Source: Xanthostigma xanthostigma
Lineage: Eukaryota > Arthropoda > Insecta > Raphidioptera > Raphidiidae
Direction: 5' to 3'
DNA length: 64,000 nucleotides
Assembly: GCA_963575645.1 (NCBI GenBank)
Contig: OY754465.1
Coordinates: 52,847,901-52,911,900, forward strand
In this document: piece by piece, positions 4,578 through 56,910 of the stretch
Numbering within the stretch: position 1 is the first letter of the stretch
How the letters are laid out: every line of letters starts with the position of its first letter
Program-made: the position numbers and the translations under genes
The notes under the pieces: generated by a model
Database searches by the model: none
Told to the model about the DNA's origin: nothing
The model's input: only the letters and a program-made list of their open reading frames with translations

Positions 4578-5835
4578 GAGGTTAGAGGTAGTCAGAGTGT
4601 TCAAAAAATCGATTTTTTTGACGTGATAACGTCTTATAAATTGATGAATCACCAATCTTATAAATTGATGAAACACCGGCTGCATGCACGAAAAAGTGTA
4701 ACGTTCCTAACGTTCCGCCTAACCCTGTGGCGTGCTTTTCTCGAAAACGGCCCTAACGATTTGGATGAAATTTACTGAAAAGGGATTTTGGGGGGCAAAA
4801 AATCGTTTTAGCTAGGTCCCATCTCTCGAAAAAATCGTTTTCATACAAATTTTATCATTATAAAAATCAATTTTTTGACGTATGAAAATACTTAAATATT
4901 GTAAGTAGGTTTTGGAATTTTATATAAACAATGAAACAATTGTTTTCAAAATATTTTGACAATTAATCTTTGAGACTTAAAATAAATACGACAGAAAGAA
5001 AGTTAAAAAAAACAATTATCTATTATTATAGGTGGTGAGTAATTTTAATAAATAAAATTAACCTAAATTTGAAGCGAAAGATGCAATATCATAAATTCGA
5101 ATTATTATAATTATTATATGTAGAATTTAGGTTATGTATTACGGAATACGTTATCACGTAAAACTATCGTCCGTAAACCGACTTTACAGACAACCAATTT
5201 TTTTACATTTTCTTGTAGTAGGATGTTTCGAAAATATTCGCTGAAAATATCAAGTCAATAGAATAAATAGTTTCCGAGATATCCAACTATTAGTGATAGA
5301 TACACTGTATATTGTCCCAAAACGAAAACTTTAAACGCGTTTTTCTCGAAACTATATTTTCTAAGTCGGTTATCCACTGTAATTCAAGAACCTTTCGATG
5401 AATTTGAATGATATTTTTACAGCTTATTGAAAGCATAAAAAACTAGAACTTGATCGAAGGACTTTTGTTTTTTTTGAAAACTTCGATTTTTTAACAATAA
5501 ATTATTGTTTCTTTCCTTGAAAATTCATGGATAACCTTTTGGAAGCCTCCATTTTGTTAATTTTCAGAAAAAAACTTTAAGTACTAGATTTACCATTAAA
5601 CTAAAAACTTTTCTTTGTTTGATTGATTTTATATGAACCAGTACGAAGCCCTACTTGCAAGAAGGGGTCCAACAAAGATGGCATAACTTCGTCCAAAAAA
5701 AAATTTTTTTTTTTAAAATTTGCTGAAATCAAGTTGAAATATTATTATAATAATAAGTGTTCATATTAGCTTTCTAAAATAAATTAAATTATTAAAAATA
5801 CTCAATTTTCCATACCTCTGACTACCCCTAACCCC
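4578..5835. mobile_element. TTAA-flanked element, Kolobok-like, carrying a nested A element
   Basis: The termini read GAGGTTAGAGGTAGTCAGAG on the left and, inverted, GGGGTTAGGGGTAGTCAGAG on the right. Both are bordered by TTAA (4574-4577, 5836-5839). TTAA duplications occur in piggyBac and Kolobok; the purine start (GR) favours Kolobok over piggyBac, which usually starts with pyrimidines. After removing the nested element at 4616-5204 about 670 bp remain, with no transposase frame. Confidence 0.75.
4616..5204 (+). mobile_element. Family A (Helentron/HINE-like) copy 1, about 590 bp
   Basis: Starts in a T run with TGACGTGATAACG and ends CGTTATCACGTAAAACTATC...GACAACCAATTTT. The inverted repeat ACGTGATAACG sits at the very 5' end but about 50 bp inside the 3' end. 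Between it and the 3' end is a hairpin, GTCCGTAAA/TTTACAGAC, with one mismatch. Such asymmetric repeats, a 3' hairpin and T-T insertion are the hallmarks of Helentron-derived elements. The interior matches the inverted copy at 43164-43771. It is nested in the TTAA-flanked element. Confidence 0.7.
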
Positions 5836-19786: not shown

Positions 19787-19835
19787 TAAGGATCAAACGA
19801 TCGTTTCGGATTTTTTAAAATCCATCTTCAGTGAT
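19787..19835 (-). ncRNA. Hammerhead-like motif (a)
   Basis: Minus strand: CTGAAGA, T, stem GGATTTT/AAAATCC, then GAAAC, followed by a short hairpin GATC-GTTT-GATC with T at the expected position before the cleavage nucleotide. All core letters fit CTGANGA and GAAA except for one extra T after CTGAAGA. Whether it cleaves is unknown. No complete host element was delimited around it. Confidence 0.4.
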
Positions 19836-20187
19836 TATTATTTTAAATTATTTTATAAGATGTGTCACATAGTTTTTTATTAGTTTGTTAACAGAAAATA
19901 TCTTCAGGACTTGGTAATAAAAAGCTACGTTCCATCCGGGTTAGGAGTTGGGCACAGGAAAGGCTACGTTAGGCTACATGGAGGGAAGGGGGTTCAAAAA
20001 GGTTCAAATAGGACCACGTGGTTTATGGATGCTCTCAAATATAAAATTGGATATATATAGTGTAAACTCCATTTAACGTCACTCGATATAACGAAAAACT
20101 CTAAAAAGTCGAAGTTAAGTAACTCTAGATGGTTTACCTTTTTGATACACTCTAAATAACGACAGACCTACCTACTCTAAATAATGA
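19836..20187. other. No feature recognised
   Basis: AT-rich sequence without repeat boundaries or coding evidence. Confidence 0.4.
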
Positions 20188-32059: not shown

Positions 32060-32527
32060 CAGCGTTGCCAGACGTCCCGATTTTGGCGGGACGTCCCGAT
32101 TTTTAAATCAAAATTAAATGTCCCGCGCGGGACAGGCTCTGTCCCGCTTTTCGGGAATAACTCGGGGATAACTTTAAAAGAAGTTAAATCTTCACAGAAA
32201 TATCATGAATTAGTAATTCTTATAAATAATTATTCTCTTATTGCAAGTTGCAATTTGTAACACTCACTCCACAGACTACTGTTTGAAACGCCATATTTAT
32301 ATTTATATAGGGTAAATCTGATTTAAAATATTATATTTCTATTAAAATATATTTTCTATGGCTATTTTTGCTATCTATTGTCACGTAAACGTAATTTTAA
32401 TTCAAATAAAAAGATAAATAGGTATTTGAAAACTTATATACATTTTTTTACTATGTCCCGCTTTCGACGAAAGAATCCCGCTGTTTTCCAAAATCCCGAC
32501 TTGGCAAAAAAAAAACTGGCAACGCTG
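32060..32527. mobile_element. hAT-type MITE family K copy 1
   Basis: Ends CAGCGTTGCCAG and CTGGCAACGCTG, flanked by GTCCAGAT (32052-32059) and GTCCAGAC (32528-32535), an 8-bp duplication with one difference. Near the left end is a palindrome around GACGTCCCG..CGGGACGTCCCG and near the right end CCCGCTTTCGACGAAAGAATCCCG. No transposase. Copy 2 at 56133-56902 is invaded, and this copy provides its empty site. Confidence 0.9.
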
Positions 32528-32969: not shown

Positions 32970-33293
32970 TTGTTATTCATACCTCGATCGAAAGTACATA
33001 GATACTTTCGGCATCAATTGTAAGGCAGAAAGTCTAACATTTACGCATTGGTGGGATTACACGCACTGATGCGGGAAGTACGTACCTACGTTCGGGCGAC
33101 AGAAAAGGAAAAATCACCTATCAACTGTTGTTTAGATGTCGTTTTCTTAGCAACCTTATTACATTTTAGCTAATAGTTGCGAACAGCTGTCATTCGTGTT
33201 TTTACATATAACCTCAAAGCTGCTTGCTTGTTTGTCTATGTTTTTATGTAATTAATTACTTATTATATTGTATTATATTGTATACTATTTTTC
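32970..33293 (-). mobile_element. Family B MITE copy 2, inverted
   Basis: Begins ATTCATACCTCGATCGAAAG and runs through GTGGGATTACACGCACTGATG, GATGTCGTTTTC, GAACAGCTGTCATTCG to GTATACTATTTTTC, in inverted order relative to copy 1. Its last few bases run straight into the truncated left part of a family D element. Confidence 0.75.
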
Positions 33294-33733
33294 ACTGCTT
33301 GGACTTCAGCTAGCCGGCAAGCTGGATATGAGGCTGGAAATGACGTCACTGCGTGCTCGCTTGCTAGCTCACAAGACGGATTTTAAAATTAGAACAGGGA
33401 CTGTTTTTCTTGCTAGGTCCCGGTCTTGCTCTGAGCAAGAACCAATCAGGAAACAGTATTTTATCTGCACGTGGGCAACACGAACAAACGCCCACAAACC
33501 AATATGGCGTCATTCTGCTCAGAGTCATGACCACAAACACGTTTTGCTCTGTGTTTATATTTGAACTGTCACAGCTGCGCGCGCACCAGATCTAACCACA
33601 AAACAAGCTTGAAAATACGTCTCGTGTGAAGCGAGCACATAGAAGCAATCAAGAAAACTGGCGCTAGAAAACTAGTAGTCAAATCTAGCAAGGAATCTAG
33701 GCGGCAAATCCAGCCTCGTGTGCAGCGGCCTTA
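33294..33733 (+). mobile_element. Family D MITE copy 2, left terminus missing
   Basis: Starts inside the left arm at ACTGCTTGGACTTC, joined directly to family B. It carries the full set of landmarks: AAATGACGTCACTG, GAGCAAGAACCAATCAGGAA, TTGCTCTGTGTTTATATTTG, GTCTCGTGTGAAGCGAGCAC, and the right terminus CCAGCCTCGTGTGCAGCGGC. The next 19 bases (TAAGAGAGAGGATCAGGTA) also follow copy 4, see findings. Confidence 0.85.
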
Positions 33734-33756
33734 AGAGAGAGGATCAGGTATGTAGG

Positions 33757-41695: not shown

Positions 41696-42118
41696 AGGCC
41701 GCTGCACACGAGGCTAGAAACGCTGCTAGGGAGTTCTGCTAGCCAGTAGGCTGGATACGAAACTGGAAATGACGTCACTGCTGGCTGCCTTGCTAGCTCA
41801 GAAAACAGGTTTTAAAATTAGAACAGGGGCTATTTTCCATGCTAGATTTGCGGATAGGTATGAGCAAGAACCAATCAGGAAGCAGTATCTTCACTTGAAC
41901 AAACGCCCACATGGCGTCATTCTGCCAGACACGTTTTGCTCTGTGTTTATATTCTGTCACTGCGCGCGCACCAGATCTATCCACAAAACAAACTTGAAAA
42001 ATAGTCTCGTGTGAAGCGAGCACTTAACAGCAATCAAGAAAACCAGCGCTAGAAAACTAGTAGGCAAATCTAGCAAGGAATCTAGCAGCGTTTCTAGCCT
42101 CGTGGACAGTGGTCTTTA
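41696..42118 (+). mobile_element. Family D MITE copy 3, complete, TSD TTA
   Basis: AGGCCGCTGCACACGAGGCT at the left end and an inverted, slightly mutated right end (AGCCTCGTGGACAGTGGTCT) flanked by TTA at 41693-41695 and 42119-42121. 423 bp with all family landmarks including AGTCTCGTGTGAAGCGAGC about 110 bp before the right end. Frames of 76-81 codons within it recur in other copies and follow the repeat. Confidence 0.9.
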
Positions 42119-43771: not shown

Positions 43772-43787
43772 TATAATTATGTAATAC

Positions 43788-43835
43788 ATTAACGTTTCGA
43801 TCTGGATTTGGACCTTCTTCAGAACTGATCTAAAA
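43788..43835 (-). ncRNA. Hammerhead-like motif (c)
   Basis: Minus strand CTGAAGAAGGTCC...GATCGAAACGTTAATGTA: core CTGAAGA and GAAAC present, inner stem only four pairs with a wobble, third stem three pairs. Probably decayed. It directly follows family A copy 4. Confidence 0.3.
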
Positions 43836-44432
43836 ATATAAAAAATATTTAATGATTAATATCTAATTCACTTTTTATAAAATTTAGTTTTATTTATTGG
43901 AGAGTTCTAATCAGACGTTAATCAAAGATTTGTATATTGTTATATGTATAAACCGCGCAAAAACGTCACAGTTGTTCGTAACGACAAATCACAGAGTTGT
44001 TCCTTCGCAAAATCCACAAAACGCCCTTAAAGAAATTTTACTTCAAAAAAATGCCATAATCGGTTTCGCCTCGTGGCCACAGATGTAAATGTTAACCGGC
44101 ATATACAATGGCAAGAACAAGTCGTTCAGAATCGCATTTTCTGTAGACGCGGAGGGGTACGTAGCTTAAAACGGGATCGGTACTAGTACCGGTGCGGAGG
44201 CAATGAGAGAATAAAAAGAGGAGGAGGAGGAGGAGGTCGGCGACGGCGGCGGCGAGGAGTGATAGCAAACAGCGCCACTAGATGGGAGTGTAAAACGCAC
44301 GTTCACGACAACGAATAAGACATTTTGCATTTGTCAGCACGTCTCCGTGATAAATTGAAAGAGCGGAAGAACGCCTCCTCCTCTCCCTCCACTCCCTCAA
44401 TCCTTGGCCGTTCTACCTGATCCTCTCTCTTA
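43836..44432. other. No gene; purine-rich low complexity
   Basis: At 44217-44257 a run of GGA followed by CGG-type triplets (GAGGAGGAGGAGG...GGCGGCGGCG) stands out as GC-rich low complexity. No coding frame with family resemblance crosses it. Confidence 0.5.
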
Positions 44433-56107: not shown

Positions 56108-56488
56108 AGACAAGTAACAAAAATATGACAACCAGCGTTGTCAGACGTCCCGATTTTGGCGGGACGTCCCGATTTTTAAATCAAAATTAAATGTCCCGCG
56201 CGGGACAGGATCAGTCCCGCTTTTCGGGGATAACTCAGGGATAACTTTAAAAGAAGTTAAATCTTCACAGAAATATCATGAATAAGTAATTCTTATAAAC
56301 AATTATTCTCTTATTGTAAGTTGCAATTTGTAACACTCACTCCACAGACTATTGTTTGAAACGCCATATTTTTCTAATGAATAAAACTTTTTTGATTTTG
56401 ATTTCTGTTTTTTTTTTTTTATTCTGAAGACGAATAAGACTCAACTATTTAACGATAGGTTAAATCTGATTTAAAATATTATATTTTT

Positions 56489-56679
56489 CAAAAAATAGAG
56501 AATAGTTACTTCTTACCACAACAAGTTTATTAGTGGATGTACATTTCGAGAGCTATGCTCTCATCTTCAGCAATACACTAAACTAAATGTACATCCACTA
56601 ATAAACTTGTTGTGGTAAGAAGTATCTATTCTCTATTTTTTGATTAGATTCAAACCACAGTGCTCTTAATATTTTTGTT
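56489..56679 (-). mobile_element. 191-bp inverted-repeat element with hammerhead-like core and 13-bp TSD
   Basis: Flanked by exact 13-bp copies of ATATTATATTTTT (56476-56488, 56680-56692); family K copy 1 has the single-copy site. Arms of about 55 bp (AGAGAATAG...GTGGATGTACAT and its inverse) surround a centre which, on the minus strand, reads CTGAAGA, stem GAGAGC/GCTCTC, GAAA. About 45 bp of non-repeated sequence at one end resembles a short tail. Long variable duplications suggest RNA-mediated insertion. Confidence 0.75.
56538..56596 (-). ncRNA. Hammerhead-like ribozyme motif (e), best copy
   Basis: Minus strand order: arm ending GGATGTACAT, T, a 15-nt segment that can pair weakly (TAGT/ATTG), CTGAAGA, T, stem GAGAGC-ATA-GCTCTC, GAA, then the second arm ATGTACATCC. 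The arms pair exactly at the positions where stem III of a hammerhead should start. The only departure from the consensus core is one extra T after CTGAAGA. Catalysis is untested. Confidence 0.45.
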
Positions 56680-56910
56680 ATATTATATTTTTATTAAAAT
56701 ACATTTTCTATGGCTATTTTTGCTATCTATTGTCACGTAAACGTAATTTTAATTCAAATAAAAAGATAAATAGGTAGGTATTTGAAAACTTCTGATTATA
56801 TACGTTTTTTTACTATGTCCCGCTTTCGACGAAATAATCCCGCTGTTTTCACTCAGAGTTCCAAAATCCCGACTTGGCAAAAAAAAAAAACTGGTAACGC
56901 TGATGACAAC

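Follow-up and report, generated by a model that had tools for sequence, protein, structure and literature searches.

A short head-to-head insertion in Xanthostigma xanthostigma is probably a dead-end copy of a Penelope-like element terminal unit

Introduction

Penelope-like elements (PLEs) are a third class of eukaryotic retroelements. The pasting of their ends head to head is a known, unexplained habit of these elements. In vitro, an anole PLE (Poseidon PAc) cuts and extends both strands of its target, starting at two adjacent internal sites; its 30-40-bp tail is the sequence between these two sites, and the assay is described as giving no apparent difference in start site between the strands (PMC11167929). 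Hammerhead cleavage in this element is reported to be protein-assisted, and the hammerhead to be dispensable for insertion in vitro; the same study, published in 2024, leaves the later steps of PLE insertion 'yet to be validated' (PMC11167929). In Adineta vaga, Penelope copies carry inverted pseudo-LTRs (pLTRs) and palindromic junctions, for which self-priming on antisense RNA has been proposed (PMC3846280). Outside the PLEs, about 70% of inverted human L1 insertions are reported to have 2-5 bp of microhomology (PMC2912911).

Here we describe a 191-bp insertion in a window of Xanthostigma xanthostigma DNA, the window being the whole stretch of 64,000 nucleotides that was analysed. The insertion is a young member of the class of head-to-head PLE copies. 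With a probability of about three in four, we read it as a dead-end copy of the terminal unit of a PLE, a 132-nt unit consisting of a pLTR with a hammerhead motif plus a tail, produced by priming steps on both strands of the target. The census of related copies presented below joins the inverted pLTR, the tail and two start sites into a single mechanism that can be tested at the bench.

The insert and its target site

The insert occupies positions 56489-56679 and is flanked by an exact 13-bp target-site duplication, ATATTATATTTTT, at 56476-56488 on the left and 56680-56692 on the right. A sister MITE at 32060-32527 provides a near-identical empty site in which this sequence is present once, with one base changed (ATATTATATTTCT). 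An earlier note made from the letters of the window had described the insertion, its duplication and the empty site, and all three were confirmed; the arms, put there at about 55 bp, measure 53 bp (56490-56542 and 56589-56641) and are 98% identical when one is reversed.

Alignment with other copies defines a unit numbered q1-q132, which corresponds to the left arm read on the minus strand followed by the right tail. The inverted arm (56489-56584, minus strand) runs from q1, at 56584, to about q96 and contains the entire hammerhead motif. The sense arm (56585-56679, plus strand) covers q39-q132: it is 5'-truncated just downstream of stem II, and therefore lacks the hammerhead core. Its last 33 nt (q100-q132; 56647-56679, plus strand) form a one-sided tail lying between what appear to be two start sites of reverse transcription. 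Both this tail and the confinement of the whole motif to the left arm had escaped the earlier note.

Nearby, at 56372-56459, the insert-bearing MITE has about 88 bp in place of some 15 mostly unlike bases in the sister copy, the result of either an insertion or a deletion.

Copies of the insert in the genome

A search of the 623-Mb genome for the foldback returned 1630 first-look candidates, of which the best 40 scored copies had at least 92% identity. Thirty foldbacks chosen by score were fetched and aligned: their outer sequence is constant and the junction between loop and right arm varies, some copies being alike. When the 132-nt unit was used as the query, all 40 scored copies matched over 132/132 positions, so the family must be young; in 24 of the 30 copies read from that search an inverted piece starts at q97-108. 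In one locus (L039) the 132-nt insert is not inverted and has the core.

Frequencies were taken from a sample selected without regard to 5' structure. An exact 31-base tail pattern has 499 matches in the genome (249 + 250; the backwards control has none), and the 69 listed for contig C1 make up the census, in which an exact tail is required and older copies are thereby left out; the window itself lies on another contig, C2. For each tail, the 330 nt upstream were searched by script, and an inverted piece was counted if its start fell within q75-104. The score-fetched copies L001-L030 and L031-L060 do not enter the frequencies, except for L019, L059 and L060, which also lie on C1.

Fifty-four of the 69 tails belong to foldbacks with the layout of an inverted arm running from about q99 towards the 5' end, followed by a sense arm running from its own 5' end to q132. 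Of the 54 inverted arms, 53 have their start at q94-103, 24 of them at q99; the remaining copy, L084, was counted, its arm starting at q81 according to the census aligner and at q93 according to BLAST. Target duplications of at least 10 bp accompany 51 of the 54 foldbacks, whereas with flanks shuffled between copies the mean was 2.4 and the maximum 5; 42 of the duplications are 11-13 bp long. While the outer starts are fixed, 33 nt apart, there are 50 different inner junctions among the 54 copies.

The other 15 tails were left unscored: eight have no inverted piece in the stretch read, and seven have an inverted piece of another kind. The former are seven sense-only copies (L064, L069, L071, L085, L092, L095, L110) and a direct tandem (L125). 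L082 and L083 belong to a single longer, complex locus whose outer left end starts at q99 with a matching duplication. The tail of L120 runs into an open reading frame (ORF), which makes it the pLTR of a longer copy, and L121 is the inverted unit of that same locus and starts at q132. L089, L107 and L124 have short or upstream inverted pieces. Together with 8454 exact tails of a second family, described at the end, the 499 tails of the young family are numerous enough for the reaction to be read from its products.

Next to their arms, eight copies (L106, L033, L040, L045, L046, L072, L109, L125) carry an additional 5' piece, inverted or direct, with the look of a template jump; L106 restarts at q100, near the same start site as the inverted arms.

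A phage or plasmid origin was considered and rejected, as searches gave short partial matches only (best E-values 0.2 and 0.004 among the matches listed), none covering 80% of the query. Two patterns searched against viral contigs had no exact match.

Penelope-like parentage

Three longer copies (L051, L047, L054) have extra sequence 5' of q1. With 300 bases of this sequence as the query, a locus was reached in which the neighbouring 1142 bases make up L133, a fragment copy next to the 3'UTR. In Pfam, L133 has a GIY-YIG piece (E = 2.6e-5, above the cut-off) and a reverse transcriptase (RT) piece (RVT_1; E = 1.1e-6, 0.6 bits under the cut-off). Longer copies fold back as well: this is so for L054 and for the long L133 locus, the tip of which falls in the RT region. 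On the other side of the unit, q132 is followed in L057 and L120 by ATTAA(A/G)ATGGCT, that is, by the ATG of an ORF after 6 nt; the frame of L057 extends for 107 codons, which gave no Pfam match. The unit thus stands after the 3'UTR in L051, L047 and L085 and directly before the ORF in L057 and L120, and this last position is why the 132 nt are taken as a pLTR plus tail. The link from unit to 3'UTR to RT and endonuclease is made by the overlap of copies that were each read in part. Exact matches in the genome number 15 for a 29-base RT pattern against the 499 for the tail, so most tailed copies are probably without an RT.

Judged by these linked sequences, the insert belongs to a PLE, one of the classes named in the earlier note: the family combines an ORF with RT and GIY-YIG, a repeated pLTR, a one-sided 33-nt tail and an inverted pLTR with a short target duplication. 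The earlier proposal of a tiny ribozyme-bearing retroelement stands in so far as this is a retroelement insertion with a hammerhead-type core; it falls in so far as the insert is a PLE pLTR-plus-tail unit and not a self-contained element. The hairpin had also been considered as the 3' stem of a CR1/L2-type LINE, a candidate that the RT and GIY-YIG pieces overturned. If q1 were the transcription start of the PLE, this would explain the unit without a separate RNA gene of the kind a SINE has.

The long inverted arms could suggest a DNA foldback transposon or a MITE with long terminal inverted repeats. In such an element the duplication would lie directly outside symmetrical terminal repeats; here it lies outside an asymmetric, one-sided 33-nt tail, and the copies show 5' truncations, scattered inner junctions and a parent with RT and GIY-YIG. 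The present results refute this explanation. Metazoan non-LTR retrozymes are, like the insert, short hammerhead-bearing retroelements, but they are described as having circular RNA and repeats of about 300 bp in direct tandem (PMC7229834), whereas the family studied here consists of head-to-head pairs known from DNA copies, and direct tandem hammerhead units occur in it only as a partial piece, for example in L125.

L051, in which the N-terminal part of the ORF is joined to the 3'UTR, is apparently an internal deletion derivative.

A hammerhead motif within one arm

Every element of the core given in the earlier note was located on the minus strand: CTGAAGA (56564-56570) with a single extra T (56563), a 6-bp stem II, GAGAGC-ATA-GCTCTC (56548-56562), and GAA(A), which with a palindromic stem III, ATGTACAT (56537-56544), spans 56537-56547 with the spacing of the anole PLE. 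From its sequence the motif reads as a type I hammerhead (q1-q61; 56524-56584, minus strand) contained within one arm, with the 8-nt palindrome as stem III and the long arms no part of it. Stem I would be formed by pairing of q1-6 with q56-61 and of q10-14 with q50-54, with one mismatch. Purely from homology, cleavage is predicted after the C at 56536, the NUH triplet being AUC; this corresponds to a cut after q49, 26 nt past an ATG at q21-23 within the core, which a TAG closes after three codons.

A scan of the window for CTGANGA, 0-1 base, a Watson-Crick stem of at least 6 bp and GAA found two occurrences, one in the insert and one at 19831 on the minus strand. The same scan, a test designed after the motif had been seen, found none with a stem of at least 6 bp in 200 dinucleotide shuffles of the window; shorter stems gave 0.015 occurrences per shuffle (at least 5 bp) and 0.075 (at least 4 bp). 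The second motif (19802-19835, minus strand) is also of PLE type, with CTGAAGAT, the stem GGATTT/AAATCC, GAAA and an 8-nt palindrome, ACGATCGT. A histone stem-loop on the other strand at 19803-19848, which overlaps it, was rejected at 24.1 bits against a cut-off of 34.

Seven hammerheads were compared: those of the insert unit, of window position 19831, of L017, L008, L011 and L004, and of the anole element. The six from this genome were picked by the window scan and by a second scan for the same three features (core, stem II, GAAA), which allowed 0-3 extra bases; three further scan matches were left out, namely window position 4642 and its relative in L016, both of which look unrelated, and the inverted twin in L017. 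Each of the seven shows [C/U]UGANGA, with UUGA for CUGA as a deviation in L004, then a single extra base, which is U in four and A in three, then a 5-6-bp stem II and GAAA. The extra T, which the earlier note had held as a caveat, has a counterpart in every sequence compared, the anole PLE included. All seven also have a self-complementary stem III (AUGUACAU, ACGAUCGU or ACGU), a longer pairing being ranked first in L017, L008 and L011. These last three share their stem II; there are five different stem II sequences among the seven loci, every one of them paired. In both stem II and stem III, sequences differ between PLE-type loci and pairing is kept. Stem I is fair in the insert unit, where it has mismatches, and in 19831, and weak in L011. 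By this anatomy (core, stem II, GAAA, NUH, stems I and III) the unit carries a putative PLE hammerhead motif, which we propose to be inherited pLTR sequence with no part in making the arms.

Rfam hammerhead families gave no match to the scanned loci, either at gathering scores or at E<=10, in a search run with no positive control. Also against a type I hammerhead stand its folding energy for q1-66, -3.4 kcal/mol against -14.0 for the best fold, and the small number of arm ends near the predicted cut site, two of 108. We suggest that the single extra base after CUGANGA marks PLE hammerheads and that Rfam models can miss them. Rfam matches by E-value to miRNA precursors, such as MIR6024 (3.9e-9), fall below gathering scores and reflect the near-perfect hairpin; this candidate was rejected.

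The earlier note had given the long arms a different role, as stem III of a type III hammerhead in a self-cleaving mini-element. The insert copy formally allows this geometry, its arms starting to pair exactly where stem III should begin, because its sense arm happens to be cut at q39. A sense start at q38-44 recurs in 17 of the 30 copies fetched for likeness to the insert but in only one of the 69 census copies (L086, q41), and the same core occurs in the non-inverted L039 and at other PLE-type loci. The long-arm structure has no Rfam match and folds at -14.7 kcal/mol against -21.5 for the best fold, which pairs the core away. In seven of the 54 C1 foldbacks, both arms being cut at q58 or beyond, the arms are kept and the core is absent, a combination that the earlier note had named as evidence against its proposal, as it had the lack of a covariance-model match; in its favour, stems II and III differ between loci yet pair. 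With 50 inner junctions in 54 copies, the arms are an inverted duplication resulting from insertion, and a role for them as stem III is very unlikely: the earlier note had the class of element right and the geometry wrong.

How the two arms may have been made

The two arms end independently in many copies, and neither can simply be a copy of the other. In 12 of the 54 foldbacks the inverted arm extends beyond the sense arm in the 5' direction by more than 6 nt (84 nt in L068); in six the sense arm leads by such a margin. Their ends are nonetheless close in a majority: the difference is at most 7 nt in 37 of the 54, against 27.9 in shuffles (p = 2e-4), and truncation beyond q50, present in the inverted arm of seven copies, is found in the sense arm of every one of them (Fisher, 7e-7). 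Seven sequence variants, found in five copies, are common to both arms; like the linked truncations, they indicate a shared template source. A further 13 variants are private to each arm, which later mutation would explain and which give no support. The inverted arm begins with bases that pair to the target end: in 47 copies this microhomology has a mean length of 1.96 nt, compared with 0.90 in shuffles (the largest of 2000 shuffles gave 1.40), seven of the 54 copies having been dropped from scoring, five for a negative offset and two for having no duplication.

A published model for palindromic PLE junctions in A. vaga (PMC3846280) would have a single cDNA or antisense RNA snap back at its end and prime its own copying. 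Head-to-head palindromes are common here, and the 37 nearly symmetrical copies would suit such self-priming, but the 12 with a longer inverted arm could not have been copied from their sense arm unless part of it was lost later. Neither a fixed start of the arm near q99 nor its pairing with the target follows from the model, which we consider improbable.

Constant outer ends and symmetrical truncation could also be accounted for by a foldback source gene whose hairpin RNA is inserted whole, the inner junctions varying as the enzyme skips across the tip. Truncation at the 5' end would then scatter the arm starts, whereas 61 C1 tails have an inverted piece of some kind within the 330 nt upstream, and in 53 of them it begins at q94-103. 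Microhomology is raised at the arm start, unlike at full-length L1 5' ends, and palindromes of different length (L054, L105, L133) would each need a source of their own, all of which makes this explanation quite improbable.

Priming on both target strands fits these observations better. From the structure of the copies, their target duplications, fixed starts and variable inner junctions, the variants that some arms share and the PLE parentage, all of which are given by the sequences, we infer an order of steps, an enzyme, and the use of one RNA per insertion with q1 as its 5' end. The protein of the element, on element RNA, would nick both target strands about 12 nt apart. One target strand would prime reverse transcription at an internal start site at q132, and the other would use the same RNA but prime at a second site, 33 nt further in at about q99, where 1-3 paired bases would help. 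Both cDNAs would extend towards the RNA 5' end at about q1, or stop early, and their ends would be joined, often with a few extra bases. The outcome would be two inverted units head to head, tailed on one side only and flanked by a short target duplication. Two RNA molecules might have served in place of one copied twice. Against the scheme count the anole assay, with no apparent strand difference in start site, and the eight census tails that have no inverted piece in the stretch read.

Among 108 arm ends, 75 lie at q-1 to q6, a cluster that may be the RNA 5' end, and 12 lie at q58-66, where stem I of the hammerhead (q56-61) has its 3' edge and where folded RNA may have halted copying. Hammerhead cleavage as the origin of the RNA 5' end is not supported, with two of the 108 ends at q48-52. 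A single base stands between two full arms in seven copies, C or G in L031, L032, L034, L035, L044 and L115 and A in L033. Such a base might be a copied cap, but the set was partly chosen and the hint is weak.

On balance we also lean towards a broader reading, in which this is the regular PLE reaction: each nicked strand would copy the same RNA from its own site, q132 or about q99, as if set by a 33-nt ruler, and the inverted duplication would be the normal product. If so, the one-sided tail is the distance between the two start sites. Both sites would then lie near the RNA 5' end, so that monomeric transcripts would yield only short dead-end pairs and full copies would need tandem transcripts. 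The pairing of site with strand is not strict, since the inverted unit of L121 starts at q132. We did not find one start site per strand given as the cause of the foldback in the open-access literature.

The anole PAc and the insert family share RT and GIY-YIG, a hammerhead with CUGARGA, one extra U, stem II and GAAA, a predicted cut 26 nt after an ATG overlapping the core and, as we read the present copies, a pair of adjacent RT start sites separated by a tail of 30-40 nt (PMC11167929). They differ in that reverse transcription starts inside the ORF in the anole, whereas q132 lies 6 nt before the ORF ATG, and in that the core ATG is closed after three codons in the insert unit, unlike in the anole; the foldbacks use a different start for each strand, a difference not described for the anole assay (PMC11167929). 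The A. vaga copies show an inverted plus a direct pLTR, an optional 31-bp tail at one end, palindromic inner junctions, solo pLTRs and, in some copies, 8-10 bp duplications, all resembling the present family; they were read as self-priming, a reading which the 69 copies sampled here allow to be tested (PMC3846280). As far as these two studies describe their systems, the C1 copies fit most of the anole in vitro scheme (PMC11167929) and argue against self-priming alone (PMC3846280). L1 twin priming is similar in that priming by the second strand takes place inside the RNA and involves short microhomology, and in its 10-20 bp duplications, but inversion is reported for 30.9% of L1 and 4 of 477 SVA insertions against 54 of 69 tails here, where the inversion site is nearly fixed and the arms are long and overlapping (PMC2912911, PMC4245944).

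A second family with the same layout

The window also holds the remains of an old copy of a second, very abundant PLE family, with part of its tail at 43885-43932 (plus strand), an inverted piece beside it at 43782-43825 and an arm start at q44. An exact 30-mer from the tail of this family has the 8454 genome matches mentioned above. Foldbacks of the same layout, with arm starts at q97-104 of 133 and a tail of 29-36 nt, were found in nine copies: 13 tail matches in the loci sampled gave five such arm starts in addition to the window copy, and six fetched copies (places 1 and 3-7 among those listed, place 2 being left out) gave four foldbacks. Around positions 1450-1740 of L023, a foldback of the first family is nested in one of the second.

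A further repeat of about 430 bp occurs some eight times in the 64 kb at about 70-83% identity, at 33293-33750 and, as relatives, near 41700, 44430, 47085, 50705, 54900, 57304 and 59264.
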